Below are positions 27,117 to 62,744 of a DNA stretch of 64,000 bases, one piece after another. Under the pieces are notes generated by a model. That model worked only from the letters and a program-made list of their open reading frames with translations. It did no database searches and was not told the origin of the DNA. Origin of the DNA: Pyrenula massariospora (lineage: Eukaryota > Ascomycota > Eurotiomycetes > Pyrenulales > Pyrenulaceae); the NCBI GenBank assembly GCA_021030905.1, contig JAGFMI010000007.1, positions 1,054,001-1,118,000 of the forward strand, read 5' to 3'. How positions within the stretch are numbered: position 1 is the stretch's first letter; every line of letters begins with the position of its first letter. The position numbers and the translations under genes were made by a program.

Positions 27117-27607
27117 AAGGGATATCTTCCCTCAAGATTTGGACGATTGTTAAACAAAAATGTTTCAACAGCGTCGGGAGATCACATTTCTCGGTATATA
27201 TTTATTTCAGGAAAGAAGTCCTGAAAAGGCAAACACCCATGGCTTCTAAGCTTGACTGCGGGAGTGCATTCAATTGTCACCTGCTAGATTCCGTGAAAGT
27301 ACACCATAAAAATCCAGAACATGACTGATGCAAAATAAGATCGCTCACCATAAGGGTCGCCCTGTTGATGAAAAGCAATACTTTCACCTATTTTCATTTT
27401 CACCGATACTCATCACAGAGTTAATTAGGCTCAAGCGAATTAAACTAGTGATAATATCATTAGATACATTTATCTATGCTAGACAAGACTAGCGGCGTTG
27501 ACTGGACTCACTATTTTGTCTCTTCCTGCACAGCAGTCCGGAATTTCAAACGAGAACCTAGATCGCGTCAGGAGAACCTCAAGCATCGGCGATTGCCACT
27601 CACAGTC
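27117..27607. promoter_or_regulatory. Divergent region upstream of the family B plus-strand gene
   Basis: About 490 bp between divergent genes. The frame of the 27608 gene is open to 27476, but the ATG at 27608, in the context cagtcATGg, is the more credible start. Nothing else was identified. Confidence 0.35.
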
Positions 27608-29857
27608 ATGGACCCATCGCATTTCTTTCGGCATGATCATGGATCCCCTCAAGATTCTAATTCTAGATACCCTCAAGCTCCTCAATACTCCTCTTTGTCC
27701 CGTGAAGGAGGTCGCACTCAGCAGAGATACTATCCTTCGTACAACCCACCCGTCGGACAATCTCAGCTGCCTTCAAATGATTGGAACCGAGCTGGTTTCC
27801 ATCCAAGTCCTGCATCCAGGTTGAGAAATCCTTCGTTAAGACAGACTAGTCGACCTTTGCGTCCCCTTGGATCTTCTAGTCGAGACTCGAGAATAGCGGA
27901 ATTCCGCAGCGCTGAAGATTTTCCTCATACCCCTCTAGCAGATCCTTCGAATAGGTCATCAATCAGCAGTGACCGACCTCACAGGCTAGAACACAGAACC
28001 GGTTCGACAGCTCCGGACAATTTGTCTAGTCAACAGGATACTAAAGGCGTTCCTTTAGGGCAACGAGCACCCCAAACAAACAAAGCTCTCCTGTCTACCC
28101 ACCGCGGTACCAAGCGTGGATTTGTCGAAGAGGGCGATTCCATGACAGGTTCATTGAGCCGCAACGACAAGGAGAAGATTCTAGAATTTCTTAAGGCTTG
28201 GTGCATGGATAAATTTCAAAAAGATATCGATCAGGTCCCTTATGCCGCGGTCAAGGGATGGCAAGAGCACCTCGAAGACAAGGCTGCAAAGCGCAAGCAA
28301 GATGGAAGAATACAATATTTACCAAGCTTCGAAACACTTCAGGAGAATCGGCACCAGCAAGTCCCACAAAACACTAACAGGGATCGCGATCCCCCGACAG
28401 GCTCTTCAAAGAAGCAAAAGAGATCTCACGCAGATCAAGCCGATGTCACAAGGGTAGGGGATGGCGCCTCATACCATCATTCGATCAGTGAGCAAGATAA
28501 GCCAAACAGCACACAAAACTTTGGTTCCAAGCCAGCAACCTCCGCCTCTTCAAGAGATTTCTCAGACCCTCGGGACGGCGCAACGAAAGAGCGCAGCATC
28601 ATCAATCCTACACCAGCATTGGCAAGAAAACGAAAAAGTGATGGTCAAATGTCTCATATTCTGGAGTATCATCATTCAGGACAGGAAAACACCATGAGAA
28701 AATATCAATCGTCGCAAGGAGCACCTACATCGACCTCGCTTCATCAACCTGAAAGCCTGATACCTAGTGCGGGACCTCCCATTATTAGAAACTCTGCCAG
28801 TGTCCGTGGAACACAACCTCAAGATAGCAGAAAGCGACATGCCGACGACTCATCAGAATATTCACGAAAACGCGCTAGGAAGGAGCAAGACTCGAGAGAC
28901 AGATCCAACGAGCCGCCCATTTCACATCCTTCCCCACCGTCAGCCCCGAGTGATGGCGCCAAGGCATCTACGCAGCGTAGTGAAGGCAATGCAGATCTGG
29001 TATCATTCGGATTCGAAGCACATGATCCTCCCACCTCCCAGTCGCAATCGCAACCACCCTCTGCACAGAAAGCTAGCAGCGGACCAGCTATAACATCCAC
29101 CATGGGCTCAGTCCAGCAACATCCTTCTTCTTCTCTCGATGGCATTCCCTACCCACTTCCCAAGATCTATATACCAGGTGAACGCGTCCCACAGTGGTAC
29201 ATCGACACAACGAAAGAATGGGTAGTAAAAAACCTCACCTTCCAACCCAACGGCCCAGCCATTGCCCCAAATGGAGGTTCCAGACTCGACGCACAAGCCT
29301 TCACACAGTCCCTCCGGACCCCAGACGAAATATCCGAGCCCATAACCAGCAAGGCAGATCCAAATCTCGTCATGACCGAGGACCTTGACCGTAGTCTGCA
29401 CGGCGCAATCATGAAAGCTGCCGTCGAAGACCCCAACAGCCACGTCCATCGCGGGAAGAACGGTGCTGCAAAGACGATGCAGACGCTCGACCCGAATACG
29501 GAAGGCGGGTATTATGTCCTAGGCGCCATCCGTAGGGTCAGTGTGGATCAGTGGGTCGACTGGGCAGCCCTGAAGCGGAGGCAGTTCCAGCTTTATTACA
29601 GGGATTTCGAGTGCATTCATGAAGCGTGGGCTTGGTGTCCACAGCTTTCGTTGTTGAGAGGGCCGAGTGCGGCCGGTGGGGGACGGTTTGGGTTCATCGA
29701 TGGTATTCCACAGTATGGTGAGGATGGAGCTGTCGTACAGAGTCAATCGTGGGTGATGAATCAGGATAGATTCGTTGATGATGGGAAGATCTGGATGGAC
29801 CTGGAGTTGAGCAAAGCTGGAGGGTGGTGTGTGAGCTTCTACAAGGGCGTGCACTGA
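27608..29857 (+). CDS. Paralogue family B, plus-strand copy: long disordered protein with conserved C-terminal domain
   Basis: A single exon of 749 residues from the ATG at 27608. Residues 1-180 and 250-510 are Ser/Pro/Gln-rich and disordered. A helical segment DKEKILEFLKAWCMDKFQKD lies near 185-235. The C-terminal about 235 residues form the part shared with the convergent gene 29922-31043. Shared landmarks are TTKEWVVKN, AFTQSLRTPDE, VEDPNSHVHRGKNGA, TLDPNTEGGYYVLGA, DWAALKRRQFQLYYRDF and EAWAWCPQLSLLRG. Basic clusters (SKKQKRSH, SRKRARKE) suggest a nuclear protein. I know no family with this signature. Only 64 bp separate its stop from that of its paralogue. Confidence 0.7.
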   Translation: MDPSHFFRHDHGSPQDSNSRYPQAPQYSSLSREGGRTQQRYYPSYNPPVGQSQLPSNDWNRAGFHPSPASRLRNPSLRQTSRPLRPLGSSSRDSRIAEFRSAEDFPHTPLADPSNRSSISSDRPHRLEHRTGSTAPDNLSSQQDTKGVPLGQRAPQTNKALLSTHRGTKRGFVEEGDSMTGSLSRNDKEKILEFLKAWCMDKFQKDIDQVPYAAVKGWQEHLEDKAAKRKQDGRIQYLPSFETLQENRHQQVPQNTNRDRDPPTGSSKKQKRSHADQADVTRVGDGASYHHSISEQDKPNSTQNFGSKPATSASSRDFSDPRDGATKERSIINPTPALARKRKSDGQMSHILEYHHSGQENTMRKYQSSQGAPTSTSLHQPESLIPSAGPPIIRNSASVRGTQPQDSRKRHADDSSEYSRKRARKEQDSRDRSNEPPISHPSPPSAPSDGAKASTQRSEGNADLVSFGFEAHDPPTSQSQSQPPSAQKASSGPAITSTMGSVQQHPSSSLDGIPYPLPKIYIPGERVPQWYIDTTKEWVVKNLTFQPNGPAIAPNGGSRLDAQAFTQSLRTPDEISEPITSKADPNLVMTEDLDRSLHGAIMKAAVEDPNSHVHRGKNGAAKTMQTLDPNTEGGYYVLGAIRRVSVDQWVDWAALKRRQFQLYYRDFECIHEAWAWCPQLSLLRGPSAAGGGRFGFIDGIPQYGEDGAVVQSQSWVMNQDRFVDDGKIWMDLELSKAGGWCVSFYKGVH

Positions 29858-32000: not shown

Positions 32001-35000
32001 CTACCTTCGTGACACCAACTTGGTATCATTTCTGCTCAGACTGACATTCTGCGACGCCAGCAAGTATCCGAATCCGAGAGCCTTGATCCTTCCCATCCAT
32101 CGGATGCCAGCCATCCTCTCATAGCCCGCCTGTTCCTTCTGCTCCAGCATGTATCCCTTCATGTCATCTACCTCAATGCCAATCTCGCACGCGTGGTGGG
32201 TGTAGCGCGCTCCATATGTTCTGTCAGCCCGCTCGTTGACCACTGCTTCAGACAGCTTGCGAGCAGCCTGCTCGGCGGGCATTAGATCAATACGGCCCTC
32301 CCAGCCGTCAAGATCCGGTGTCAGTTTGGACACGTCCGTAAACCGAGCGAATTCTTCGAGCACCGAATGAACCGCATCTTGATCCTGCAGCTGTCCTGTA
32401 TTTGATGGCACGAACCGGTGAATCGACACAGGTAGTCCTAGCGTCTCGGCTGCGCGCTCGAGGACCCTCTCGCTGACCCACTTGCTTGCGACATACCCAT
32501 TTGAGCCGTCAGCAGGAGGCACGTTCGCTGCTGCTGTGCCGGCGCCGCTCTCAGGTGCTTGCAACACGCCGGCTGAAGAGGTGTAGAGGATTGGTATGCG
32601 CCGGGTAGCGGCCAGCTTCACGAGTTCTTTCGTCGCGTTCACATTCGTGGGCCGCAGAGTGTGATAGCTGTCCCAAAAGGAGCGCGCGGCCCCCATGTGG
32701 AGCACCACATCCACCTCGCCCGAAAGAGTCGCAAATTTCGATTCCGAGAGCCCGAGGCGGGGCAATGATAGATCGCCCTCATATGAGATGATTTTCGCTC
32801 CCGTGATGGCTCGCTTCGAGAGTGTATCGGTGTCTCGCACGGCAACGCAATAGACCTTGCTTACACTTGGATTGTTAACGAAAAGCGGCAGGAGGTACTT
32901 CGCGAGGAAACCAGTGGCGCCCGTCAGCAGCACCGTCTTCTGATCATCGCGTACTGGCCGAGCCTTCCCATACGCGTCGAACGCTGGTACGTCCAGATCA
33001 GGCAGCTCTATTTCCCTATCCCAATCGATCATCTCGACAACGCTGCTCTCCTCAATCTTCTGTGCCATCTCGCCCAGCGTATTTGCACCGAGCAGCTCCA
33101 CAATGCGAACCACAACATGGAAAACGCCACGGATCCGAGATTGTAAGCGTACAATTAGAAGAGAGTTGCCTCCAACAGCGAAGAAGCTGGTCTTGGGAGT
33201 AATGTTGAATTTGAACTGATTCCCCAGAACATCCTCCCAGACTCGCTTGAGCAGGACCATTGTTTCGCTGAGTTCGAGTCCTGAATTTCTTTCGATGCTA
33301 TGCGTTCGACGGGGTAGTGGCAAGTCTTGGATTGCTTTGCGGTCCACTTTAGAATGGTTACTAAGGGGGAAACGTTCAAGGGGAACCGCCATGACTGGAA
33401 TCATGTATTGGGGAATGGGTAGCCGGCTTAGCAAATGATGAAGGAAATCTTCTTTGTTTGTGTGACCATTCTGTGAAGCGAACACTACGTGCGCGACCAG
33501 AATGTCGCCTTCGCGAAGAGTAACGACTGCTTCCCTGAGAACACCACCGGCTGCGCAGAGGATATTACTCTCGATGTCGCTGAGCTCTATGCGGAGTCCT
33601 CGTATCTTAACCTGCGTGTCGCCTGCAACACGGCTATGGAAAACAAGAGCGCCATCTTCAGTGAGGTGTCCGATATCACCCGTACGATACATTCGCGTCC
33701 AGCCATTGGCAATGTATCCGGGATGTCTCGCGGCGTATGGGTCCGGCATAAAAGCTTTCTCGCTGAGCTCCTCGTTAAGATAGCCCTCGGCGACACCAGC
33801 CCCGCCAATAAAGACTGCTCCGGGCATCCCAGGAGGCAAAGGCTGGAGCTGGTCGTCTAGGATGTATGTCACATAGTTCGGAAGCGAGTATCCACATGGA
33901 ATACGTCCCTCTCGAAGGTCATCACGGTATGCAATTTCCATCTTGTGTGAGGAGATAGAGATCTCGGTCGGACCGTAAGAGTTGAAGAATCGGAGCCGTG
34001 GAAGATTGAGAGCCCCAAAATCTCGCAAGACGGTGCTTGTCAGCGTCTCACCTCCACCAAAGGCGAATTGCCAATTAGAAGCATGCCGGAGGTTGTTGAT
34101 CCCATACTGTAACCAAAGCGAGTATTCCGATGGCGTCGCTTTGGTATATGTGATGTTGTACCGCCAGATGATGTTAGTGATCTCAAGTGGGTCGCCTCGC
34201 TTGCTCCAAGGAACGATGTACACCATTCCGCCATTAACCTTGAGAGTCTCGGTGTTAGCGATTTTCCATCTGGAATAAAAAGAACCCTTCCCTCATGAGA
34301 TAAGAGAAAGGATGTAGCTTACTAATCCCGTATACATCTGATCGGAAGAGTGATTGAAGGTAAATGAACTCTGCTGCAGAACGCGTTCTGCACCAAGCTT
34401 CCAGGTCTTTGTATATCCTTCAATTTCGTTTCGTAGCCCCGAGTGCTTGATGAGTATTCCCTTTGGGGTGCCTGTCGACCCACTCGTGTAGAGAATCGCG
34501 CCAATCGAACCGGCCTGAGCACGATTGGGCACGGGAGCTGATGGCTTGGCGGCCACGTTGCTGACGTTAATGACTTTGGCGAGAACATTCAATTGCGTCG
34601 CGTCATTTACTGTGGTAGCATCCACAAGGATCCCACTTGGTTGACAGTCTTGAGCAATACTTGCAAGACGTTGTAGAGGGTTCCGAAGATCCAGAGGGAC
34701 GTAAATGCCCCCGATACGCATAATTGCAAGCATGGAACATACCCAGTCCGAAGCAGCTTGCTGGAAAACAAGTACCCTGGAATCGGTGCCGAGTCCGGCG
34801 TTGACCAATGTCTCTCCGATTGCTTCTATGCGTTGGACCAAGCCAGCGTAGGTAACAACACTGCCCATGCCATCTACAACAGCAATCTTGTCCTTATTTG
34901 ATGACATGTCCGCAACCTGATCGATGCGATGGGGAAGGGTTTCGGGCCAATCGGATTCTAAGTTCGGACCTGAAGACGTAGTCAGTAAGCGCCAATGATG

Positions 35001-38000
35001 AGAGAGCACGAAACAACTCACCACGGCCAAGCTTGAATGCGTCGGTCAGCTTTTTAGAACTGAATAAGGGAGCGTTCTCCCATGGTAAAGAGACATCTCT
35101 ACAGAGCGCCTCCAACAGTCCCATGTAGGTGTCCAACAACAAGTCTGTGGCCGCCTGATTATATAGGCTCGTCTGCGTCCTGATGGCAAGAATTGTGCCC
35201 TCAACACTCTCCGCCACGTCCAATGTGATATCGTAGGCGGTTCTTCCGGGGAGGGCATCCATCATTTTGAATTTGCAGTTGTCGAAAACATGCATATCTT
35301 GCCCTCCTTGCCGATAGTCGAAAAAGGCTTGGAACAAGGGGCTGGACTGGGAATACCGCGGCACATTGAGCTCCTTCAGGAGCACATCAAAAGGCAGACT
35401 TGAAGCAAGTGCTGCATAGGCTGTGTTACGACCCTCGATGATAGCATCAGCAAATGTTTGGCCTGATATGCGACGAAAGCGAAGCGGAAGGAGGTTGAGA
35501 AAGAGACCGATAGTGCTCATTGCGTCACCGCCCCGACCGGCATCGGCGATACCAATAGTCAAGTCCTGGGTTCCAGTAAATTTGAAGAGCATGACATTAA
35601 AAATGGCCAGATATAAGTGAAAAGGAGTGGACCGTTGTGCCTTGGACATTTGCTTAATACGGGGAGTCAATGCGGGGTCCAGCCGGCAGTGTACCTGGTG
35701 AACGTTGAACGCGTTCATTGGTACACGAGAACTGACTCTTGCTATGGGTAGTAATGGCAGAACTGGTGGATCTTCTGAGAACACGCTCCTCCAGAATGCA
35801 AGAGCCTCGTTCATCTTCCCATCTTCGTAAGCTTCGCGCTGCATCTTCGAATGAGAGGTAAGTTGACGCGGAAGAGGGCCAAGAGAGTGGTTCTTGTACG
35901 CTTTTTCCAGGTCGCTTAAGAAAATTTGTACGCTGATTCCGTCCATGACTATGTGATGATAACCAACAAGAAGATAATGCGTGGACGGGCTAAGTGAAAG
36001 CAGAATCAGACGCATAAGATCTCCACTCTCAATTTCGAACTGATAGTCCTTAAGCTTTGCATAGTCGACTTTAACATCTTGGACGCAGTCGATTTGCTTC
36101 TGCTCTAATCTTAATTTAGAAAATTCCATGATCTTCTGATAGGCCGTATCGCTCTCAATCTCGTCCCCGACGAAGCACGTGCGGAGTGCTTCGTGTCTGG
36201 AGCCAACGGCGCGAACCGCTTTCTCCAAATCGTCGAGGCGCAGGTCTCCTGTGACTTCGTAATAAAACGTCACGTTGAAAGTAGCCTGATTCTGGATCAA
36301 TAGCCTCAGGAACCAGAATCGAGATTGGGCGAAAGACACTAGCTCGCTTTTTAGGAAGTTAGGTGGAGGCTGGATAGCTGTGAGTAGCAGCGCCTTCTCC
36401 GGCTTAGCCGGTTCTGCCAGGCTGGTAGATGAAGCTGCTGAGCAAATTTCATTCGAAACGTCATCAGGTGATGAGCTCTCTAGTGGCGTGGATGCAGAGT
36501 CCGTGCTGGAAAGCGAAGGCTCGGGCTTTGGCTGCGACATGGGGATGGGGATTGGTTTGACGGAGGGCTTGGCGTTGCCTCCCTTTTTTATGTCAGCAAG
36601 AACATTTTCCGGCATTTGATTCAATGCTTGCTCGCTGAGATCAGCGATTGATCCACCTCCAAGAATCTTGAGAACTGGTAAATCGACCTTCAGCTCCTTT
36701 ACAAACCATGATCGTACCTCGACAGCGATTAATGAATCTATACCGTGGTCGATGAGTGGCACATATTGGTCGAGATGCTGTTCGGTGATTTGTAGTATCA
36801 CTTTTAACTCGGCAGTGAATGATGCTACAATGACTTTAGCAGAGGACTCTGTCAAGTGTTTGCCATCCAGTTCAATAACGCACCTTTTAAAATCTCCAAT
36901 GCCTCGTCCATGTTCGTCGCGCTCGAGAGTTGGTCGAAGACGGAGAGACTGTTATTTCTGTCATCTCGCTGTTCCCGTGTGCCTTTAGGATCAGCAACAA
37001 TGCAATGCGAGAAGCGAGGGTCATCTGCCCAGCGTGGTCTATACTCGTCGTCTATCGCGGAAAAAATGGCTGTTGTGAGCACAGGGGACGATTCACTGTC
37101 CGGATGGCTAGCCAGGATCGTTTCGGCGAAGAGCTGATGAAAGTCAGCTTCGGAGATGGGCAGGTATTTTTGTTTGATAAGCTGCTCCTTGACCATTGGG
37201 TCGGCTCGTTCAACATATCCAATTCCAACCACACGGCCAATATCGAAAGTAGATGCGGCCAAGCCACGTTTGCGCCTCTGCTTCGCGAGGCTTTGCATGT
37301 AGGCATTAGCCGCGGCATAGTTGGATTGTCCTGGATTGCCGACGACGGCCGAAAGAGATGAGAACATAACAAAGAAGTCAAGCTGATCGTCATGAAAAGC
37401 CTCAGCCAGGTGATTGCTCCCGTCAATCTTAGGCTTCAGGACCCTTTCCATCTGATCATGCGACATGTCGGAGAACAGAACATCATTCAGAACCATGGCC
37501 CCATTAGCAACACCTGCGACGGGTGGACATGTGGCTCTAACTTCCTCTACAATCTCTTTGACTGCCTGTCTATCAGAAACGTCCCTAACAGCCATCAGTG
37601 AGTGACTACTTTGATCACAAAGAGCTTTGTGATAGACTTACATGGCGAAAACCCTCACGATGGTGTTGAGAGCCTTAAAAGAGTCCAGCCACTGCGCGCT
37701 TACGTTGGGATGGCGACTCGTTAAGCAGATACATCCTGCACCGTTCCGTGCCATCCACTCACAAATGGACTGTCCAATCTGCCCAGTCAGACCCACAAGG
37801 AGATATGTCTTGTGTTTGGAGAAGAGGCGTTTGGCGTCGATAGGGGCCATTTGAAGAGTTAGAAAGTCGCTCGACGTCCAGTCGATAATAGTCATAGGGT
37901 CACTTGCGTGGCTAATCTGACCAAGTGGGATGAGCAGATAAGGCGGGATTTGGTGGGCGGCATGGGTTTCTACGTGTGCGTGGGAAACAGCATCCTCAAG

Positions 38001-41000
38001 CAGACCTAACAGGTCGGCTTGACCACAGAGTGGTGGGCGGCTTTGGCGACGGAAGAGATCAGAAACATCAAAATGCCTGCAATCCAGTGGTAGAGCTTCG
38101 GCAAGGCTATTACTGACAGCACTAGACGCAGCATTCGTGCTGAGATCCAGGAAATGCGTCACATCTGCAGGCAGCTTCCTCCGGATTGCATGCTTTGGTG
38201 TCCATGCCTCAATTCTTGTCCAGTCAGGATTGTCCCCGTCTGCGGATGCGGTACTGAAGTTGACGAGGACTTCTTTGGCAGCCGCTCGTCGCGTCAGTGC
38301 CATCGCGAAGGACTGGATTACGGCAGGCTCATGAACGAGCAATTTGCTCCCAAACGGCAACGTAGATATCAAAGATGCTGCTAAGAGCTCGCCTACAACG
38401 GCGGTGAGTATACTGGGAGACTCGTAGTCAAGGGATACTGCCACGAGGGGGTTTATTCTCGATGACATGTCGTTAGAAAGAGCAATCTTTTTTTCCTTCG
38501 TCGCCTCGTTTAGACCGATGCTTAGGAATGAGAAAACGTTAGGAGCTACATGGAGAGCTACAAGGACCGATTTCTCCACTCGAATAACGCCTCGGCCACC
38601 TTTTTTGGGGAGCAGAATGTCTTCCTGCAGAACCGGAGGCCATTCGGAAAGCTGTGAGATGCTGACAGTCGAATGTGACGGTGGTACAGTCTTGGTGATA
38701 GACCGTACTTGAGAGTTGAATCTATCATTTTGGCCGTGATTAGCGACCAAACGAGGTATCATTAGCTGCCCGTTCTCCAAGAGATACTCCAGCTCCTGAG
38801 ACCAAAGCAAGTCCGGTGACTGCCACTCGTTTAGAGCGCATTGGCGGAGAAGACACTCCGTGATAACTTTGGCGGTATTGTGGTTCGAATGTGAAAGGTC
38901 GAGATATCCTAAGGTCAGATATGGTATCTCATGCCGTAAGGCGCGACCGAGACCAATGCTGGCCATTTGATACGGGTCCTCGTCCTGGGCGCTACGGGTG
39001 ACCCAGACAAGATTTTTTGCAACCTCATAGATTCGTTTCAGCCCGGCCATCTTCTCCTGAGACAGGTTCCTGAAGACTGCTTCGTCGAGGTCAATAAGAC
39101 TAATCATTGTATTCATAGGCGAAGGGGCATCTGACTCGGTTGGTAGGCCAGGCAAGATGGTCACCTTGTCGCAGAAGCGTCCCACAAGGTCCGCTATCTC
39201 TTCGGCGATGCGTGAGGTCTCAAGAGATGCAGCTCCGAGTATCACAATCTCTTTGAAATGCAACGCGAGTGGCGAAGGCGAAAGTGGGCGACGCAAAAAG
39301 TCGACTTGATTGTTAACAGCCTGTGTAGCTATGGCAGAAAGCGGCCATGTCAGGTTGTCTAGCGGTCGCGTAATGGCATCGACGCCCGAGAAGCCAGCTT
39401 TGCGCAACAAGCTGTGCCATGCTTCGGGTGTGACGAGCGGGCCATTCTCGCGGCCGTCTTGATAACTCCACCAGCCTGAGAGACCGGCCGCCATATTTGA
39501 GAATCGCAGCGCGGTAGGCTGTGTAATTTCGACGAGTATAAGATGGCCACCCGGCTTGAGAAGTTTTCGCGTGTTTTCTAGCGTTCTTTGCAGAGATGAA
39601 GTAGCGTGTACGACATTGGCTGCAATTATCATGTCATAAGAATGAGCTTCAAACCCTTGGGCCGCTGGAGAGTGCTCAATGTCAAGCACCTTGAATGCCA
39701 TCTTGCTGCTATATGCCTTGAACGTCTCCTCGGCTTTTTCGAAAAAGCTTTCTGATATATCAGTGAAAGTGTAAGATAAGAAGGCGTTATCAATTGTTTG
39801 TAAGACCTCCTTTGTCGTTCCACCGGTCCCAGCACCTGGAAGATACCAGATTGTATCAGTCAGTTCAATTTTCCAAGACTGGGAGGAAAGATGATTGCAA
39901 CAAGGTCTTACCTATTTCGAGAATCCTAGCGTTCGGATACCGATGCACAAGCTGCTGTACCATCCCAGCCAAGTACGCACTATATTTCGAGAATCCGAGG
40001 GCATTGACGTACATTTCTTCCATCATGCCGGCCAAGTGCTCGACCATAGTTACCTCCCCCCTCACAACAGCCGGGATGTGCTCTCCAACGGTCTTGATGA
40101 CTTTGACATCAATAGTATCCGAGTATCTTTTCGTGAGTTTAGTGCAAAGGCTACATGGTAGTCAAGGCTTATGTGCATACCTCCTAATCAAAGGCTCGAT
40201 ATCACCGAAAGTATCATTAGACCATTTCTCCTCCACCCAAGGGTGCTCTCTCCGGGCTATGATCGACAGCGCGTGGTTCATGTAATCATGAAGACGGTGA
40301 TGATGCGGTTGACCGTTGGCCCATTCCTCGTCGCTGATTTCTGATTTCCACTTTCGGAGGTAGAAGTACGACATTCTCTCGCAAAGAGTGGCGATCTCAA
40401 TTTCCTCTACGGAAGGATGATCATCACCTATGACGAAATTCGCATTCGGTATGTCAAAGCCCCATTTCACATAGGTGAACGGGCGACGATCATCATCGGC
40501 GGTGGCTGAGTACAAAGGCTTCATCTCCAAGCCTTCCGCCTGTATAAGCGTCTGCTGGCCGTCCTCACTGAAAACCTCGATGCTACTACTGAAGGCGTTG
40601 GCTTGTCCCCTGTGTATGTTGGCGCATATTGGCAGCAGGGTCTTAAATTTGGGTATCGCAGAACAGAGCTTTGGATTAATCCGGATGCGTCCGATTAATG
40701 TGGGAACTGATAGTGTCCGGAAGTTCTCGTCTTCTGGATGAGAGCCAGCCACTAGTGATGCTTGGATGGCTACGTCGAGCCACGTAGGATGCACCATAAG
40801 AATAGCCGCATCGTCCGGGTAGGTGTAAGTTGACACTAGTGCCGACGTCTGGTCTAACTTCCGTTTGATGGACGACATGCCTCTGAATGCTCCCGTATAT
40901 CCGTATCCAAGTTCGGAGATAGATGAATAGAAAAGATCTTCATCAATATCATTCATATTTGAAGTCTCGAGTGGCGTAGACGCCAATGTGGTTGAGGAAG

Positions 41001-44000
41001 GAGTGCTGTACACAATCATAACCTTCCCGCTAGTCACAAGATCCAAGCTGGTCGGTCCGTTGTTGGCGCATGAGTGACATGAGAAGTCGGCAGTCTGAAT
41101 CTTGTCATGTTTCCCGATAGTACTAATTGCCGAGAGCGTGACGAGGGTCTCGACGGCAAAGTTGGAGTCGTCTTCGAATGAAATAGCCTTGCCGATAAGG
41201 AGGTCTCGAATTTCATAGAGCTTGACATCTTGGTCGCCAGCCAGCTTCTTGGCAGCTTCGAGAACCATGGCAATGTAGCCCGCTGCTGGAAAGACCATTT
41301 GATTCTGCAGTCTGTGTCCGTCCAGCCAGGGTATCTCAGACGCCTTTAGTAGGTTCTTCCAGCGTCTGCTGATGTCGGTAGAGTCTGGAGAGACCGTGCC
41401 AAGTAGGTCATGGAAAGGTTCACTCCTTGACCGTATCATCTTGGACTGACGAGATTCATGCCAATGCCTTCTCTCGTGGTTCCACTGATACAATGGAAGT
41501 CCCGCCACAAACCTAGGCGGTGCTCCGGTCGACATCAAGTCCTCATAGGACCGAAAATTGACGGCGTCAGAGCCAAGTTGGGCCCAGACGAAGCCTAAAG
41601 CATCTGCGAAAGCCTCAATATCGTCTACGCCCCGGCTCAAGACCCCACAGTAAGCGAGTGGCGATCTAACCTCCAGAATGTTCTGGGTTGCTGGACCTTG
41701 GAGAGCTGGATGGGGCCCAACTTCAAGCGCAAAGTTCAGCTTATCACTTGCGGCAATCTTGATCGCATCCGCGAAAAGGACAGGCTTGACCATATTATCT
41801 CTCCAGTATACATCCTGGAGCGCTTCTGTGGGTTGCATGGGTGTCTCCCCTGGGGTAACGCTTGAAAACCAGGAGCAAGAAACGTGTCGTTCCCGATTTA
41901 CTCGGATTCCACATGCCCGAAGCGATTGGATATAGGGATCTCCACAGGGAAGCATCTGATGAGAATGATATGCTGTGTCGACTTTGAGCGCCCTAGCGAA
42001 TTTCTTTTCCTCGTGAAAGATTTTTTCCGCGTGGATAATAGCATCAACGTCTCCAGAGAGAGTTACACTCGCAGAAGAGTTGTGCGCAGCAATGGAAATG
42101 CGTCCTTTAAATGCAGGGAGCTCAACCAAATCCAGCGCATCTTCCCAGGATGTCCCTACCGCAAGCATGGCGCCTTTCTGCCCATAGCCATTAGGGTGTC
42201 CTGCAAGATGAACATGTAGTCCCCGATAGTATGCAATACGAATTGCATCGCGGGCCGATATGAAATCGGCAGCGTATGCAGCAGCAATCTCTCCAGAAGA
42301 ATGGCCTACAACTGCTTCGAAAGAGATACCAGCCTCTTTTAAGAGATCGATAAGAACGACCTGGATAGCTGTACATAGTGGCTGCGATAATTCGGCCTCG
42401 CCAATCCGTGAAGTCTCTGTGCCAGCTAGAATTTCATCTTGTAAACGCCAATTTGGACGATCCAAAACGGGTAGACCAGCCAATGATTTTTCGAGGTACT
42501 CCAATCTACCGCGAACAAAAGCAGAGGATCGGATCAGACAACCCCCCATAGCTACCCACTGGGCGCCTTGACCGGTAAAAACTCCTAGGATACGAGGTTT
42601 TCCGGGAGGTGATCCCACCTTGTGGATATTCATATCGTTTTGTTTCATTGTTGAGACAACATCGTTCATCTTGGAGACAAGTCTGTCGATGGTCCTCGCC
42701 GAGAAAGTCATTTTGATGGGGAGCGCTGATTTGCGAGTCTGCAATGTCCAGGCCAGATCGAAAAGGTTGATGTCTGCCCGAGCCTTCAAATGTTCCGAGC
42801 AGGCTTCAAGATGTGCAAAGAGGCTACTTTCGGACACGGCGGAGAATGTGAAAGGAGTAAAAGGGGCAGCCCTGCGCTCAGTAGACTTGACGCTTGTGGT
42901 GATTGGAGGCTGGTAGCTCTCCACAATAGCATGTGCATTGGCGCCGCCGAAACCTGTTCAGAACTCTTAATCAGTACACAAAATAGCTCACATAGAGAAT
43001 TGATCACTACAAACCGAAGCTATTGATGCTGACTCGTCGAGGGACCCCCTCAGGCAACTTCGGCCATGCCACGGCGCTGGTGGGGACATGCAACCCATGA
43101 TAGAAAGGCTCGATGGCCGGATTCAGACGGTTGAAATGTAAGTTAGCCGGAATGAAGCCGTGCTGGACAGCAAGAGATCCCTTAATAAGACCTGCGAGAC
43201 CAGCAGCGCCCTCAGTATGGCCAATGACAGTTTTGATGGATCCAACATAGAGAGGATGTTCAGAAGCACCATTTGAAGCCACGCCGAAGCATTGCTGGAT
43301 AGCCTCGGCTTCACGAGGATCTCCAGCTTTCGTGCCTGTACCATGCGCCTCAAAGAACTGAGGTCGGTCTTGGGGATTGCGAGGATCCAATCCAGCCTTG
43401 GAGTACGTCTGCCGGATCAAGGTCGCTTGTGCTGCAGAGCTTGGAACTGTTAGGCCCGCGGAGTGGCCGTCTTGGTTGGATCCCGTCTCACGAATCAAAC
43501 ATTCAATGTGATCACCGTTGGCAAGAGCGTCGCTAAGTCGCTTCAGTATGACGACTGCAACGCCTTCGCCCCGTGCGTATCCATCTGCGTCAGCATCCCA
43601 CACTACGATACCCAAAGTCAGCCTTCAGAGGGAAATAAGAATAGAGCTCAGGTCCTTACTGCGGGATCGACCGTTAGGAGACAGCATGTTCAACCTGTTC
43701 TCAGTCATAAACGGATCTGCATGATGCTATCAATCAGCTCAATTCTTTCGGAGCTGAATCATGCTCAGAACGGAGAAGCTCGCACCTGCTCCCAGGATCG
43801 TCGTCGTACCGCAAGCCACGGCTACATGAGACTCGCCTGTGCGTAGTGCCTGAACCCCCTGGTGAACAGCGATCAAACTCGAAGAGCACGCGGTGTCAAT
43901 AGTTAAACTTGGGCCGTGCCAATCGAAGAAATATGATATTCGATTCGAGAGAATAGCTCGCGAGATACCAGTGGCAGCATACGTAGGAACGCTGTCCAGG

Positions 44001-44422
44001 TCCCGCATCAGGATATTTTCGTAGTCGAGGCCCATAACTCCGACGTAAACAGCAGTATCACTATTACGCAAAGCCTCGATGGTATGGCCACCTGATTCTA
44101 AGGCCTCGTATACTGTCTCCATTAGCATCCGCTGCTGTGGGTCAATCGAGTCTGCCTCTTTCCGGCTAATGTTGAAGAATCCGGCGTCAAAGGCGCGCAC
44201 ATCTTCGAGAAGATATGAATGTCGGACATTAGTAGTACCATGGTGAGCGGCATCTGGGTGATAGTACCCTCGTACATCAAATCGATCGGAAGGTATATCT
44301 TTGCGTATGTCGCGAGGGTTCTGAAGCAGCTCCCACAAGGACGAAGGTGAAGATGAACCACCAGGAAAGCGACAGCCGCTGCCTACGATGGCAATTGGCT
44401 CTCGTCGTTGCGAAGCCATCAT
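32001..44422 (-). CDS. Hybrid highly reducing PKS-NRPS (KS-AT-DH-MT-KR-ACP-C-A-T-R)
   Basis: Core synthase of the cluster; joins a C-methylated polyketide to an A-domain substrate. Ten exons fit in phase: 44422-43786, 43716-43660, 43602-43015, 42953-40181, 40126-39912, 39835-37642, 37584-36884, 36848-35022, 34969-34323, 34238-32001, giving 3958 residues. [62 protein letters not shown] (about 1350-1560): [15 protein letters not shown] (about 2100-2280): GLTGQIG, NYAAANA. ACP: GIDSL (about 2426). C: HHIVMDG (about 2685). [12 protein letters not shown] (about 3155), NSYGPTE. T: GGNSL (about 3567). R (about 3640-3958): LLTGATGF, with Tyr/Lys in GYVASK. No ER domain is present; the gene at 58011 probably supplies it. 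The intron between KR and ACP is only 35 nt. A4 reads FNHS instead of FDxS. Confidence 0.93.
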
Positions 44423-45826
44423 CACTTCGTTGACTAGTTGCAGAGGTAGGTGATAAGAATGTAGGCTTTTCAAGTCACCGTCTTGTCGTCCGTCATAATA
44501 GCCAAGTAATGAACCCGCAATGTAGCGAAGCTGTCGTTCTATACCCGGTGCATTTCCCTCAAGTATTTCGAGTTTCTCAAGGTTCTGAGCCTCTCGCCGC
44601 TTTCACCTCGGCGCGGTACCCATGATGGCAGACGCACATTTCCGCGACAGATGCCGAAATCAGATTCAGTATGCTCCAAGCAGTCAATCCATCCCAGAGC
44701 CTCGCAACCATGCACCAAACACCACCGAACGAGGTGGAGTACCGTGACATATCGCCGTAGATTTTCGGCGAGTTGCTACTGCTGCCAATTTGAAATACAC
44801 CGATCAATTCAACGGGTACATACGATTATTGGTCAATGTAGATATTCCGCTCAAATGTTGCTCCATATCTTGCTCGCGATCCCATGTGGTGTGTCTACTT
44901 GCTTCTCTCTTCCGTAATAGGTCGTGAGCCTGGGAAAGGATCCATTAAAGGAAGCGGAAGGGACGCTCTCGAATTGTCTCCTCAAGGCTTGTGTGCGCCA
45001 CTGTCGTACACGATGATCCCTATCTAAGTTAGGAGCTGGGGCGCTTCATTCCATGCCAACCTGTAATCACGTTGGCGTGGCGAAAATGCTGTCACCATAA
45101 TCAAGCGTCCCTGTTCGAGTAAGCGGTTGGCTGTACTGGCTGGTCTAAACTCGGCTAAGAGGCGTTTGCAGACCGTCATTTTGTTCGTTCCAAGGTATTC
45201 GAAGGGAACGTGCAGCACGGCACGAACCGTGCCGCTCCGGATGGCGTAGAATAGTCTCGCTGATCAGAATTCTTGTTTCTGTATTGACCGCCACTTACCC
45301 TCTTGGGCTGCTTACATACCTAATAAGCTTTATGCCATACCCCCTTCTGGCCAACGAGGCATCGATCGAGGTCCCAGGGAACGGGAAGCGAATGATGCAG
45401 ACCCTGCTGAGATTTTGTTTTTTCTTTTATTGACAGGGGCCCCATGTGGGAGGGTCGATTGTGTGCATGCGTGAGGCATGTCGGTCCGAAAGATGGCAAG
45501 ATTGACTTCGCGCCGGTTATCAGCTGTGGTGCAACACCGCTCGCATTCTGCGCTGTCTGGTGCTGCGCGCAGACGCCCTTCCCCGCACCATCTCTCGTTT
45601 GTTGAATCGCACCGCGCCCCCCCAGATTGACCCCCATCGCACGATCTCATTCAAGTACCCTGCCGCGGTGTTCACATGAGAAGCAATTCTTGTATAGGAG
45701 AAACTCACCATCATTATAACCATCGTCGTCGTGTCCGCGGTCGTGCTAAAAACCCCCCAGCCATGATTTCCAGATAAACCTTTCGCCAGGTTCCTCCCTG
45801 TTTTGACATCGAGTCAAGCGTCAGCC
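44423..45826. promoter_or_regulatory. Divergent promoter, PKS-NRPS / AflR-like regulator
   Basis: A 1.4-kb region between the synthase and the regulator that probably controls it. Short frames here (such as 44577-44807 and 45320-45650) overlap on both strands without family signal. The PKS frame is open for 17 codons upstream of 44422 but has no ATG there. I could not pick out a binding site with confidence. Confidence 0.45.
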
Positions 45827-52493: not shown

Positions 52494-53930
52494 CATGACG
52501 ACAGGGCGGGAGGCTCAGAGGAGGAGAACTTTTCAAACTAGCCCTTCTTCACTAGACGACTTAAGATATAGAGTCAGAGGTAGGCCCCTCTGAGGACAAA
52601 GGGCCTTCTTAGAGAGGAAGGACTGTTCTTGTGCAAATAAGGCTCCTTGAGAGCCTTGAGGTAGCTCTGGGTTTTAGCACAATAATAACGCTATGTTGAG
52701 ATTCCCATCTGGTGTTCTAGTAGAACTTGCCCTTAGAGAATCTTCTAACTCAGGGACGTATCACCGTATACTCATAAGATCGTGATCGGAATTTAGACTC
52801 ATCCGAAGCGACAGGCTTCGTTGGTCAGATCAAGCCAACTATTAGGTCCTTGATAGCCTCCGGCTCATGTCACTTTTCGACTTGTAGAAATAGAAGTTTG
52901 TCCTACAATTTCATAGTCTCTTTATTACAATACGGGTGTTCTTTAGATATCACGAAGTCTACAAATTCTTTTCGGGGCATAGCGATAGTTCCTACGCCTA
53001 ACCTGTACTTTGAAGCACTGCTAGCTTTAAATCAAGGATAGACAATTTCAGACAAAATAATCAGTATAGCTGCAGATATGTCTGTTCAGATATGCTCGTC
53101 CTCGAAGATCGATCGTTAGATCGATGTTGATGATTCTGTGGAAAAATGCCCTGGTCACTACCGACATCTAAACGCGCGTACGACGTAACAGCCTCTTCGC
53201 CAGAATAGGTTAGCGTGGTGAGAGGATGGCAGAACCGGAGTTATTATTTTTTCCGCCGGAATGAAGTTTTTCTGCAGTCCTTTTGCGGCTCTGGTCTCAA
53301 CTGTCGAGGTTGTTGAATTCGGCGACACCATCGTTCGGCTATTCAATCGCTCGGAGGGGCTTGGATTGATCTTTGGTAGAGGCTAATGCAAGTAAACAGC
53401 ACTCAGCAGATCTCGATCGGCGAATTTTGCCACCTTGAATTCCTCAAGGAAACCCGACCCATTTTTTTCACCACTTTCATGCCTACAGCCATGGGACCGC
53501 GGCGCTCAGTATCAGCTTGGATCGCATCGTACCATTTCACCTGGGTGCCTTGTTTCCCTTTCCACGGTTGTGAGTGAGACATAGCTGTATGGACATGGAC
53601 CTCATCCCTACCGAGATCGACGAATCGAGTGTGTGCCATGCATGAATAACATACCGGTTGAAAAGCGGTAAATGACAGGAAAATGTATGTAAAGAGGAAT
53701 TCTAGTGATATAGCATATTGTCTCTGGGCGAATTCGGCGACTTTGCAGCAATTATGCTTATCAATTAATTCCTGTATGGTAAACTCCAAGAGCGTACTCA
53801 CTCTAGTAGTCTCGGAATGGCCATCATTTTATCCTCATTCTAACCTGTCTTTGTTTGGGTCCTATCCTCTCTACACATCATCTTATTATCGTCACAGCAT
53901 CGCTTTCCCTCTATCTCTAAGTGTGTAGCC
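52494..53930. other. Intergenic region upstream of the P450-reductase gene
   Basis: About 1.4 kb. A minus-strand frame of 132 codons at 53403-53801 and shorter ones have no family signal. The last 150 bp before 53931 are pyrimidine-rich, as expected for a promoter. Confidence 0.4.
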
Positions 53931-56900
53931 ATGGAGTGTCCCATCAAGCATGCCCAATTTAGCATCGATCGGTCCAAGCTGGAGAAGATACCTAAACCGC
54001 CAACGAAGTATTTCGGCCTGTTGGGGCATCTACCTGAAATCGATCCGAGCTTTCCAGTCAGTTCGCTCTGGGGGCTCATGGACAAACATGGCCCAATATT
54101 CGAGGTCGACTTACACGGGCGCAGAGTTCTCGTCGGCAATCACGAGCTATTCGGGGAGCTCTTAGACGAGAACACTTGGCTCAAACAGCCATCTCCAGCA
54201 CAAATACAATTACGAGACATGGGTCGTGATGGCATGGTGACGGCTTATTCTGGAGAAAAGAATTGGGGAATTGCTCGGCGGTTGTTAAATCCGTCGTTTG
54301 GTATGTCTTGGAGATCATACTTAGACGTATACCAAAATAGCACTGCTGACAACCGTACAGGCCCTCTTGGGCTCCGGAATATGTTTGATGACATGTGTGT
54401 TGACCAATTCAAGTAAGCTGGAAACCACTAGCTAATATAGCTGGCTTTATAGGCTAGAAATTAGCTCCCAACTGGTTCTAATGTGGGATCGTTACGGTCC
54501 TGACAATGAGATTGAATGTGTCGAGGACTTTACACGGCTTACCTTCGACACGATTGGGCTCTGTGCCTTCAATATGCGGCTCAACCAGTTCTACATGCCA
54601 AATACTCACCCTTTTGCAGAGCTGCTCGCGCGGACTCTCATCGAATGTGGCAAGAGGGCTAATCGTCCGAAATTCGTCAACAACTGGCTCTTCTTTCGAG
54701 CGGAGCAGAAGCGACAGCGCGACATGGTCGAGATCACGGAATTTTGCGATAAAGTTATTCGTGATCGAGAGGTGAACCCGAACCCTCAGGCCACTGATAT
54801 ACTGAATGTCTTGCTACATGGTGTCGACAAGGAAACGGGAGAGAAGTTGCCAAGGGAGAACGTAACATGCCAGGTAGGGACCTTCCTTGCCGCTGGATAC
54901 GATACCACAGCCTCGTCGTTGAGCTTTGTCTACTACTACTTGTGCGATAGTCCAGACGCTCTCCTGAAGGCGCAACAGGAGGTAGATGAAGTCGTCGGCG
55001 ACAAGGTCGTTACTATGGATATGCTGCCAAGACTCGTCTTTCTGAGTGCCTGCATCAAAGAAGCGCTACGCCTCAACTCGCCGGTCAACATTCTCAACAG
55101 AGATGCGACCAAAGATGCAATTCTTGGGGGCAAGTACTTCATCAGCGAGGGCGTTCCCGTTTCGACTGTTCTACGCCATCTGCACCGCGACCCCAAAATT
55201 TGGGGAGATGACGCTGACGTATTTCGCCCGGAGCGCATGTTGGATGGTGAATTCGAGGCTCTACCTCCCAATGCTTGGAAACCAGTATGTCTTCTAACCT
55301 AGGATTCCTGTTCTATTCAAGTATTCCCAACTCATTGACTCCAGTTTGGTAATGGCTCCCGAGCATGTATCGGCCAAGGATTTGCGGAGCAAGAAATGCT
55401 CATCAATCTTAGCCAAGTGTTACAACGCTTCCAGATCCAGAAAGCAGACCCGAGCTATAAGCTTGTCTTGAGGGCCACGATTACGACCAAGCCGGATGAT
55501 TTCAAAATAAAGGTTCGTCGCCGGCCCGGCAGGACCATCACTTTTGGCATTCCTGGTGGCGCTCTAGTCGAGAGCACGCAGGTTCAGCCCCGCCAGCACG
55601 GAAGGATCATCCACAAAGAAGGAAAGGCAAAGGCTGTCTCTGTATTAGTTGGTGGCAATATGGGTACCTGTGAAGGTTTGGCTCATAACTTGGCTGAGAA
55701 GGCACCAGAATTTGGGCTGGAGGTTGACATCCGAGATTTGGATTGTGCGGTTGAGAACTTACCTCCTGACAGACCCTACGTTGTCATCACAGCCTCCTAT
55801 GAGGGCAAACCACCAGATAACGCCAGGAAATTTGTGGCATGGATTGAGGAGCTGTCTCGCAAATCCTCTAAATTGCCCAAGGGCATTCAGTATGCAGTAT
55901 TCGGCGCAGGGAACAGCGACTGGTTCAGCACATTTCACCGAATCCCGAAGCTGGTCGACGAGACACTGGCTAAGCTTGGTGCCGATCGAATCATCGAGGC
56001 ATGCCACAGCAACGTCAAGCTAGGTGTCATGGGGCCATGGGAAGAATGGAGTGAACAGCTTTGTGTGAGCTTGTCCGACAGCAAGAGCACGAGCCAGGCG
56101 TCGGTCGGGGTCGAAGTCAGCATCGACGACGCCAAAATTCGCCGTCCGACGCAAGGCAGCGAGGAGATGGACAACGCGACGGTGCTATCCAGTACTGAGC
56201 TGGCCGACACTTCCGTTGGCGCTGCAAAGCGACATGTAGACATTCGCCTTGCTCCAGGTTGTGAGTTCGCCTCGGGCGACTACTTGGTGATCCAGGGCCG
56301 CAATCCGGAGGAGACTGTGCGTCGAGTGATGAAAAGATTCGGCCTTTTGCGACACGACATGATGACTGTCAAAGCCTGCAAGAAATCATTCCTCCCAACG
56401 CAACCAACCCCAGTCGGTCACTTCCTATCCACCAGCGTTGAACTCGCCACGCCCGTCACAAGGCGACAACTTTCGGTGCTTCTTCACTGGGCGCAGGAAG
56501 GGAGTGAGGAGTACAAGAGGCTGGAGACAATGCAGGAGGATGGGGTTTACGAGACACTTCTGGAGAAAAAATATTCTATCATTGATATCCTCGAAGATGT
56601 CCCTAGGCTCCGCCTTCCATTTGGTGTCTATCTGGACCTTCTCTTGCCTCTGACTCCCCGCCAGTATTCCATCTCTTCATCACCACTAGAAGAGAGTGCT
56701 GACGAGGGATATGGCCCCATCTCAAGTGTCACTTTCGATGTCCTCGAGGCCCCAGCGATGAGTGGTCATGGCACTTTCCGCGGCGTCGTGAGCAATTACC
56801 TCTCCGCCTGCCGGCCGGGAGACCGTATCCAGTGTTTTGTGCGCCCAAACAATCTCGGCTTTTGCCTGCCGCCCAAGATTGAAACGCCCATGATAATGGT

Positions 56901-57424
56901 GGCAGCAGGCACAGGTATCGCGCCGGTCCGTATCTCCCGCTTCCCAAGCTTCATTCGTCTTTACTCTAGTGGGTTATGCTTCAGTTACTGACAATTCAGC
57001 ACAGATGCGTGCCTTCATCGCGGAACGTGCCGCTGTCAAACAAGCAAGTGTGCACAATCTGGGACCTGCTGTGCTCTACTTTGGTTGCCGCAACCCAGAG
57101 AGAGACTACATCTACCGCTCCGAACTCGAGAAATGGGAAGACGAAGGTGTTGTGGAAGTCATCCCGTGCTTTTCGAGGCCCGATGGTGCACAGAAAGGGC
57201 GACACGTGCCTGAGGCGCTTTGGGAAGATCGAGACCGTGTATGGGACACTTTTCACAAGGGTGGGAAGATCTATGTATGCGGTAGTGCGGCTAAGCTGGG
57301 ACAGAGCTCGGCGGACATGTTCAAACGCATCTGCATGGACAAGACCGGAAAGGGCGAGCTTGAAGCAGACCAGTGGTTGGATGAGATGAAAACCAAAGGG
57401 ATGTATGTGAGGGATGTCTACTAG
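53931..57424 (+). CDS. Self-sufficient cytochrome P450-reductase fusion (CYP505 / P450foxy type)
   Basis: Hydroxylates its substrate using an internal electron chain from NADPH through FAD and FMN to haem. Five exons fit in phase: 53931-54300, 54361-54412, 54453-55284, 55345-56925 and 57005-57424, giving 1084 residues. P450 part: AAGYDTTASS (I helix), KEALRL (ExxR) and haem loop FGNGSRACIGQGF, with the Cys ligand near residue 426. Reductase part: FMN-binding VLVGGNMGTCEGLAHNLAEK (about 516), FAD-binding RQYSISSSPLEES (about 856), NADPH-binding AGTGIAPMRAF (about 940) and VCGSAAKLG. Length and order match P450 BM3-like fungal fusions. No N-terminal anchor is present, so a soluble or peripheral enzyme is expected. 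CYP505 members include fatty-acid hydroxylases and fumonisin Fum6; position here suggests it oxidises the PKS-NRPS product. Confidence 0.93.
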
Positions 57425-58010
57425 CACCGGGCATACACAACTGGGACAAGGTTTGGAGGCCGTGGCTTAATCTCTACCAAATTGATTCTCTACATCAAAC
57501 AGATACGATGCTAAGCCCTCCTCCTGTGCTACCTATGAATAAAGCTTGATTCCTCGATGCGTGTAATTTTAGCCTCTCTGCGTCTTCAAGGATGTCAGGT
57601 GTATTGAAAGCTGGTCTCTCGCAATCAAGCTATCCATCTCATCATCATAGGGGGAAACCTCTAGACACCGAAAAGGTCGGCGTAATACGTGCGTCACGAG
57701 ATAAGACCGAATAGCCCATGCAATCTTTCGGCGTCTTTCTTGAGCTCGTTCACAAGGACTCGTTCGGCAATTCGAATATGTGCCACGCAGACGCATCTTG
57801 CGCATTATCAAAAAGAAACCGAGGGGGAGGGGGTCATCTATCGACATGTGAGCCTCCCAGTCCACGACCATTCCTCCTTCAGAACAGGCAGCAAGAAAGA
57901 AACATAAGATGTCAGAGATAGACTAATTGTGGCAGTATCTCAACGAGCAGTTGAACATCCAAAGATCTTGAACATAGCACCATCCTCGACCTACACAACG
58001 TGTCATTATT
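57425..58010. promoter_or_regulatory. Intergenic region upstream of the enoyl reductase
   Basis: About 590 bp between two co-directional cluster genes. Overlapping short frames on both strands lack family signal. It probably holds the terminator of the P450 gene and the promoter of the reductase. Confidence 0.4.
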
Positions 58011-59141
58011 ATGCATATCGCCCCGGTACCCACCTCCCAGACGGCCCTTGTGGTTCAAGGGCCCGGGAAGCTTGCGATTCAACGTGATATCCCGGTGCTA
58101 CCAGTGAGCGATGCCGGTGCCATCATCAAAGTCGCTGCCGTGGCAATCAACCCAGTGGACGCGAAGATCCTCGACCTCAGCCCGGCTGTAGGAGCGGTCC
58201 ACGGGCACGATCTCGCCGGCACCATTGTGGCCCTGGGCCCGCACGCACCTAATCATCTCGCGGTGGGAGACCGTGTGGCCGGCACAGTGCATGGCAATAA
58301 CTCCTTGGAACCCGGCGTCGGGGCCTTTTGCGAGTACGCGGCGGCCGATGGAGACTTGCTAGTCAAGCTGCCCGAGAGAATGAGCTTCGAGGATGGCGCG
58401 ACCATCGGTATCGGCTTGGGCACGGCTCTGCTGTGCATCTTCAGCGAGTTGAAGCTTCCGGGCCCTCTGCACCCACGCAAATCGTCCACCGATGGCGACT
58501 TCGTGCTTGTCGCGGGCGGAAGCACGGCCACAGGCACTCGCACCATCCAGTTGTTGAAATTGTAAGATATAGAAGACTCCTCAGGGACTCATGAGACGCT
58601 GACCGCACCTACCAGTATGGGACTGCGCGTAATCGCGACCTGTTCTCCGTCCAGTTCCGACCTTGTCCTCAGATTCGGGGCCCATAAGGTTTTCGATTAC
58701 CGTAGCTCAGCCTGTGCGGCCGACATCCGCGCCTACACGCGCAACACCCTGGCGTACGCGATCGATTGCGTTTCCCAGGCCGATACCACCCAGATGTGCT
58801 ATGGAGCCATCGGTAGGGCGGGAGGCCGCTACATCTCGCTTGAACCCTACCGCGAGATCATCACTTCGACCCGGCCAACCGTGACACCTTCCTTTGTCAT
58901 GGGGCTGACCTTGTTCGGCAAAAAGGTAGCTCTCGAGGGAGTCTACGGGAGAGAGGCACAACCTCAGGATCGAAAGATGGCCGTAGAGATGTTCCCTCAG
59001 ATCCAAAAGCTCATGGACAACGGGCAGTTTTGGACGCATCCGGTAAAGTCTATGCCAGGGGGATGGGCAGGGATATTGGAGGGGGTTAATATCATCCGTA
59101 CCCAGAAGATGTCGGCTCAGAAACTGGTCTATACCGTGTAA
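58011..59141 (+). CDS. Trans-acting enoyl reductase (LovC/TenC type, medium-chain dehydrogenase family)
   Basis: Reduces alpha,beta-unsaturated thioesters on the PKS during selected rounds, replacing the missing ER domain. Two exons, 58011-58561 and 58616-59141, give 358 residues, close to LovC. The N-terminal GroES-like domain has AVAINPVDAKILDL and HGHDLAGTIVALG. The nucleotide-binding part has FVLVAGGSTATGTRTIQLLK and LRVIATCSPSSSDLVLRFGA. The C-terminus HPVKSMPGGWAGILEGVN is typical of trans-ERs. The usual zinc ligands are absent, as expected for this subgroup. A general quinone reductase is the alternative, but the trans-ER features and the nearby ER-less PKS-NRPS make the assignment strong. 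Confidence 0.88.
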
Positions 59142-62103: not shown

Positions 62104-62744
62104 ATGCGATTCACCATTAGCATCTTCGCTGCCCTTGGGCTCCTTTCTGGCGCTGTCTTGGCCCAGGGTAAGCTATAAGCAATTTCATATTATCGGTTGA
62201 GACTACGTGTCAAAGTGACTTGATACTAATCATATATTCAGACGATGTCAACTCCATCCTCTCCGCGCTTGCCTCTGAGAGCCCCGATGATGCCAGTGCT
62301 GCAAGCTCCCTCATGAACGGTCAGCAGCCAGCTCAAAAGCGACAAGACGATGTCAATTCTATCCTGTCGGCGCTTGCTTCTGAGAGCCCCGATGATGCCA
62401 GCGCTGCAAGCTCCCTCATGAACGGTCAGCAATCAGCTCAAAAGCGCCAGGATGATATCAACTCGATTCTGTCCGCCTTAGCCTCTGAATCACCCGACGA
62501 CGCTAATGCAGCGAGCTCCCTCACGAATGGTCAGCAATCAACTCAAAAGCGTCAGGATGATCTGAACTCCATCCTCCAGGCTCTCGGCCAGACTTCTCCA
62601 GATGATGCCAGCGCTGCCAGCGCTGCTGCAAACGGACAACAGCAGAAGCGCCAGGACGATATTAATTCCATTCTTGACGCTCTTGCCCAAGAAAACCCGG
62701 ATGATGCGAATGCCGCCAAGGGAGCAATGGGCGGGTCGGCATAA
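62104..62744 (+). CDS. Secreted Kex2-processed repeat precursor (KEP-type), five QDD units
   Basis: Small secreted precursor of 188 residues. Exons 62104-62167 and 62242-62744 are joined by a 74-nt intron. A clean signal peptide (MRFTISIFAALGLLSGAVLA) is followed by five tandem units. Each starts Q-D-D-(V/I/L)-N-S-I-L and contains SPDDA or NPDDA near its middle. Units 1-4 end with Lys-Arg, the cleavage site of the Golgi protease Kex2; unit 5 ends at the stop. Units begin at about 62164, 62343, 62448, 62553 and 62652, with lengths of 35, 35, 35, 33 and 30 residues. There is no Cys and no Tyr, which argues against a disulphide effector or a ustiloxin-type cyclic peptide. Processing would release four or five related acidic helical peptides with N-terminal Gln. 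Their function is unknown. Confidence 0.85.
62164..62744 (+). repeat. Tandem 105-bp repeats in the secreted precursor
   Basis: Units 2 and 3 start exactly 105 bp apart, as do 3 and 4; the next is 99 bp. Units 1 and 2 are almost identical in protein, with synonymous differences in DNA, while units 4 and 5 are more diverged. This gradient points to recent duplication at the 5' end. Confidence 0.85.

Follow-up and report, generated by a model that had tools for sequence, protein, structure and literature searches.

The locus described here lies close to the right end of a 64,000-nucleotide stretch of Pyrenula massariospora DNA (the window), and it raises the question of whether a small gene made up almost entirely of near-identical repeats encodes the precursor of several secreted peptides, or a repeat protein of some other kind. 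The gene occupies window positions 62104-62744 on the plus strand, equivalent to positions 1116104-1116744 of its contig (C31), in a genome of 37.8 Mb and 33 contigs. An earlier note on this DNA had proposed a KEX2-processed repeat protein (KEP) precursor, consisting of a signal peptide and five near-repeat units separated by Lys-Arg (KR).

The unspliced reading frame encounters a stop codon soon past the signal peptide. When seven AG acceptors were tried with the GTAAGC donor, two of them, 62241 and 62172, left no stop other than the terminal one. Acceptor 62172 was dismissed because the intron would be 5 bases long, which is too short, while acceptor 62241 gives a single clean frame and an intron of usual size. 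The coding region as first delimited is thus retained, with a 74-base intron inside it, and the spliced precursor is a protein of 188 residues from two exons, laid out as follows.

62104-62167, plus strand: exon 1, with the start codon, the signal-peptide-like segment, Gln1 of unit 1 and the first base of codon 2
62104-62163, plus strand: signal-peptide-like segment, residues 1-20, by hydrophobicity, with the VLA/Q boundary read from the sequence
62168-62241, plus strand: GT-AG intron of 74 bases (GTAAGC...TTCAG), with a branch-like TACTAAT near its 3' end
62242-62744, plus strand: exon 2, with the remainder of unit 1, units 2-5 and the stop codon (62742-62744)

Residues 1-20 were judged by eye to resemble a signal peptide, with a basic Arg2, a hydrophobic stretch at residues 4-19 (Kyte-Doolittle mean 2.1) and Val-Leu-Ala before the boundary. 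The units, which are near-identical and arranged in tandem, account for 168 of the 188 residues (~90%), and nothing lies outside them after the signal segment.

62164-62342, plus strand: unit 1, 35 residues including KR, interrupted by the intron
62343-62447, plus strand: unit 2, 35 residues including KR
62448-62552, plus strand: unit 3, 35 residues including KR
62553-62651, plus strand: unit 4, 33 residues including KR, with a two-codon gap ahead of QKR
62652-62741, plus strand: unit 5, 30 residues, without KR, ending at the stop

At the DNA level, Tandem Repeats Finder reports an array at 62240-62575 (period 105, 3.2 copies) that spans approximately the first three units only, and its score of 437 is the highest of the four rows reported for the window. 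Elsewhere in the window, a 24-base tandem repeat at 822-950, within an open frame at 711-1355, encodes PQASLQSE-like repeats.

The unit consensus is QDDxNSILxALxxxxPDDAxAAxxxxxG, followed in units 1-4 by a Gln-rich linker and KR; the paired Asp residues that had been remarked upon at two spots are those of QDD and PDD. KR occurs at all four unit junctions and there are no other dibasic sites. Within the mature part of the protein, all four Arg and four of the five Lys residues sit in these KR pairs, and four KR were reached in none of 200,000 residue shuffles. The mature part is free of Cys, Tyr and Trp, as the earlier note stated, and also of Phe and His. Each predicted peptide has a computed pI of 4.05, in keeping with the acidic character ascribed to them.

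Two published definitions of KEPs, as worded in the text of their sources, bear on this layout. Umemura (2020) asks for three or more dibasic-bounded repeats, each 8-100 residues long (PMC7329392), and the present protein has five units of 30-35 residues with KR at 4/4 junctions, as counted with a program other than Umemura's own. Le Marquer (2019) requires at least four fragments bounded by KR or RR, with the repeated motif making up at least 15% of the protein (PMC6339444). Here there are five fragments, and units make up 168/188 residues, according to a script that is likewise not the original. Apart from the signal peptide, which was assigned by eye only, the predicted protein is a KEP under both definitions. 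Across the window and a further 20 kb on the right, 49 frames contain at least four dibasic-bounded fragments, and the precursor gene alone passed a repeat filter of our own making. A single P_proprotein match occurs in the genome, its frame also encoding a Peptidase_S8 domain, and serine carboxypeptidase (PF00450) yields 22 exon-level rows, none of them identified as Kex1. Judged from the five KR-bounded repeats, their ~90% coverage and the convertase match, the protein is probably a KEP that is processed by Kex2, so that the earlier interpretation gains support.

In the processing envisaged, signal peptidase would take off residues 1-20 and expose Gln-Asp-Asp, and a Kex2-type convertase would cut behind each of the four KR pairs in the Gln-rich linkers, which are presumably exposed. 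The P4 residues at these sites are Ala, Ala, Thr and Gln, and Ala is among the P4 residues that Kex2 accepts (PMC8528282, in the text available). QD follows KR at 4/4 junctions, and the cuts would give units 2-5 the Gln-Asp-Asp start. Because unit 1 begins with QDD directly behind the signal segment, signal peptidase and Kex2 would together give one and the same N-terminus on all five peptides. Release by Kex2 at Lys-Arg, as described in the earlier note, would accordingly apply to the internal ends, while the first N-terminus would come from signal peptidase and the last unit ends at the stop codon. Basic tails would probably be trimmed by a Kex1-type carboxypeptidase, and an N-terminal pyroglutamate is possible on the released peptides. 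The expected length of about 33 residues holds for units 1-3 (33 each) and not for units 4 and 5 (31 and 30). The products would be five linear, acidic helix-Pro-helix peptides of 30-33 residues, acting outside the cell. Once KR is trimmed and with Gln kept at the N-terminus, their calculated average masses for units 1-5 are 3318.4, 3308.4, 3349.4, 3086.2 and 2973.1 Da, and pyroglutamate would lower each by ~17 Da.

The units were also compared at the nucleotide level. DNA identity is 90% between units 1 and 2 and 59% between units 4 and 5. Units 1 and 2 differ by nine synonymous changes and one nonsynonymous change, for a dN/dS of 0.024 (Nei-Gojobori-type counts), and values of 0.08-0.15 were obtained for unit 1 against units 3, 4 and 5, in counts from non-independent unit pairs that gene conversion could alter and in which synonymous sites are saturated in 6/10 pairs. 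Sixteen columns are invariant across all five units, and synonymous codon variation is present in 15 of them; the Arg of KR is kept at 4/4 junctions through three different codons. On these counts, strong purifying selection acts between units. Invariant columns that carry synonymous changes imply repeats that are old enough for silent sites to have been scrambled while the protein sequence was kept. Against processing, an uncut repeat protein would also show selection on its units.

Such a protein is the foremost alternative, namely a secreted repeat protein that is never cut and forms an extended or bundled array of helical repeats, with the KR pairs as incidental linker residues. Structure models bear on it. 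A single unit was modelled as unit 2, with units 3-5 supplied as an alignment (four rows), and the five models had mean pLDDT values of 81.2, 76.0, 71.4, 70.0 and 64.6. The predicted fold is a helix at residues 2-14, the Pro16 region and a second helix at 16-33, which continues through the linker as far as residue 33, although there the confidence is lower. For helix 1 the alpha-type hydrophobic moment lies at 0.38-0.50, with shuffle p values of 0.07, 0.07, 0.06, 0.01 and 0.02 for units 1-5, its amphipathicity being no more than nominal in units 1-3 (p 0.06-0.07). Helix 2 shows no amphipathicity, and there is no rise in the beta-type moment. The chain encoded by exon 2, modelled without an alignment, yielded a low-confidence structure (mean pLDDT 56.5, pTM 0.29) that is helical throughout and whose long helices take in each of the four KR sites. 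This would suit an uncut protein, as would our own comparison of the ~34-residue two-helix units with solenoid repeats. At its confidence, though, the exon-2 model neither favours nor excludes a folded uncut protein, and the contrast between a pLDDT of 56.5 for the chain, without alignment, and 81.2 for the unit, with four rows, speaks against the uncut protein only as an unequal comparison.

Database matches point both ways in a similar manner. TAL effector repeats are 34 residues long, and a search of PDB with the whole precursor matched a TAL effector at E 1.4e-12, together with three weaker rows that include two TPR-named chains at E 0.004. With one unit alone, however, PDB returned no sequence at E up to 10, and since the matches vanish with a single unit they look like repeat inflation. 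An uncut protein also leaves it to chance that KR stands at each junction and nowhere else, and the reading is considered unlikely.

Relatives were not recognized in the collections searched. Within the same genome no paralogue emerged: the only rows were the two exons of the precursor gene and a 27% match (E 0.011), the latter in a frame beside what we read as bZIP-like sequence and taken as chance. Among 14 Pfam rows with E values of 1 or less, none exceeded the cut-off (the best was HLH at 20.3 versus 20.7 bits, over 20 residues), PHROGs gave ten weak rows, and NCBIfam gave five rows, all under the cut-off. All of these are taken as low-complexity helical matches. Scans of viral_contigs with the single protein (11 pattern stretches) and with the five-unit alignment (101 stretches), and of the prokaryotic genome_contigs with the five-unit alignment (53 stretches), confirmed no match, although collections of these kinds say little about fungi. 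Six unit fragments had no text occurrence in 5.39 million open-access papers.

Far less probable is a second alternative, in which the gene encodes the precursor of an ustiloxin-type (dikaritin) RiPP whose cores are oxidatively cyclized. The KEP layout is common to dikaritin precursors in the text seen of PMC9769878, and the genome is rich in UstYa (PF11807), with at least 88 exon-level rows of E ≤0.01, at least 79 of them over the family cut-off, which suggests many ustiloxin-type loci elsewhere in the genome. Dikaritin precursors are expected beside a UstYa gene and with aromatic cores, whereas here, among the matches listed, the contig has a single UstYa, which lies at 407484-407645 and is separated from the precursor gene by about 0.71 Mb, and the units lack Tyr, Trp, His, Phe and Cys. 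Together, this distance and this composition make ustiloxin-type cyclization unlikely. A six-frame search that took in the window plus 20 kb on its right side located seven HxxHC pentapeptides, of which four are in frames of <50 residues, two in NRPS-type frames and one beside the stop of a 100-residue frame; none was read as UstYa.

The surroundings of the gene are otherwise varied. To its right are a T5orf172/MUG113 gene, a pair of related small proteins, a C2H2-like frame just short of the cut-off, and PIG-X, RFX and PEX3 genes. To its left, 32001-44602 on the minus strand encodes KS, AT, DH, methyltransferase, KR (here a domain name) and ACP domains as well as condensation, AMP-binding, carrier and reductase domains; 53844-56991 on the plus strand encodes a P450 with reductase domains (a fusion); and 57978-59141 on the plus strand holds an alcohol-dehydrogenase-type pair of frames. 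A TRI12-like fragment, below the cut-off, lies on the plus strand between the PKS-NRPS frames and the P450-reductase. By its domain content, 32001-59141 is a PKS-NRPS hybrid cluster, and the precursor gene begins ~3 kb past it, an adjacency from which no tie is claimed. The earlier statement that no modifying enzyme is visible in the 1.3 kb to the right edge can be extended, for UstYa, to the whole contig among the matches listed, save the one 0.71 Mb off; on the left side this P450-bearing cluster is situated.

Several further features were recorded nearby. AMP-binding, carrier and NAD_binding_4 domains at window 7574-11050 identify an NRPS-like reductase. Two frames of 797 residues, at 22798-25191 and 27464-29857, were considered as a duplicated pair because of their equal length and rejected (best BLASTP E 2.6; no 60-base inverted repeat). 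In the right-hand stretch L014, small frames at 2462-2911 and 3367-3810, ~2.5-3.8 kb right of the window, are 47% identical over 87 columns and share a PCTPTGP..CN.GF motif, and on the minus strand at 5957-7471 there is a 504-residue frame with a hydrophobic start and Gly-Lys-Gly and Ala-Ser repeats; Pfam matches none of these with E ≤0.01.

Alpha pheromones carry a two-Cys motif. Patterns for this motif, which agrees with the one printed in PMC6339444, and for the PYGxPxG motif from the same text were used to look for a pheromone gene. The stricter versions of both had no matches. A looser two-Cys pattern had 20 matches versus one for the control, and the frames read for 16 of these had no KR (14) or a single one (2), so that none of the 16 is a KR-repeat frame. 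It is most improbable that the present gene is the alpha-type mating pheromone precursor of P. massariospora: the precursor layout is the same and no other pheromone gene was recognized with these patterns, which leaves the true one unaccounted for, but the Ste13 XA/XP motif is absent behind KR (QD in 4/4), the peptides have 30-33 residues as opposed to 9-24 for alpha pheromones (PMC6339444, in the sections seen), no pro-region separates the signal segment from unit 1, and the units have no Cys or aromatic residues.

With a Kex2-processed precursor as the preferred reading, several known systems offer points of comparison. KEPs as described in the text of PMC6339444 and PMC7329392 have the same signal-peptide-like start, at least three near-identical units between KR sites and coverage of most of the protein. 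The unit here is without the conserved core motifs printed in section 4 of PMC6339444, and no motif printed in the sections seen of either paper resembles it. Rep1 and Hum3 of Ustilago maydis are secreted and amphipathic, with Kex2-type junctions and units of 34-55 and 31-36 residues, respectively, and Rep1 peptides form surface fibrils (PMC4617103, in the part seen). Unit size, junction type and secretion are alike, the likeness being one of description and not of sequence. In contrast, the number of units is five here but 12 and 17 in those proteins, the acidic peptides are helical in the model and lack a raised beta-type moment, and the hydrophobin domain that follows in Hum3 is missing. 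Ece1 of Candida albicans has seven KR sites cut by Kex2, with one 31-residue product trimmed by Kex1 (PMC5784256, as far as seen), and its units are non-identical (PMC6339444). It is similarly a precursor with KR sites, whereas the units here are near-identical and acidic, and no sequence likeness is claimed. Dikaritin precursors share the layout (PMC9769878) and differ in that no UstYa gene neighbours this one and its units have no Tyr, Trp or His.

By analogy, a role at the surface or in the extracellular matrix, like that of Rep1/Hum3 peptides, is slightly favoured for the products, although tentatively so; a signalling peptide and a peptide for biotic interactions are each a little more doubtful. 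On similarly speculative grounds, the gene may represent an uncatalogued KEP family, whose acidic helix-Pro-helix peptides of ~33 residues, with the same Gln-Asp-Asp N-termini, would act as helical hairpins that self-assemble or bind receptors.

KEPs are widespread among fungi, with 7878 reported in 1345 of 1461 strains (PMC7329392, in the text seen). Their functions are largely unknown, and in Coprinopsis cinerea six KEP knockouts had no apparent phenotype (PMC9769878, likewise). The precursor gene alone leaves the understanding of this class unchanged. It does provide a clean case, in that all post-signal residues lie in units, the five predicted peptides share an N-terminus and selection between the units appears strong, and for these reasons it should be readily amenable to peptidomics and deletion. 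Should the helical-hairpin proposal be true, the peptides would constitute an unmodified fungal class unlike the pheromone, cyclic-toxin and amyloid-repellent products.
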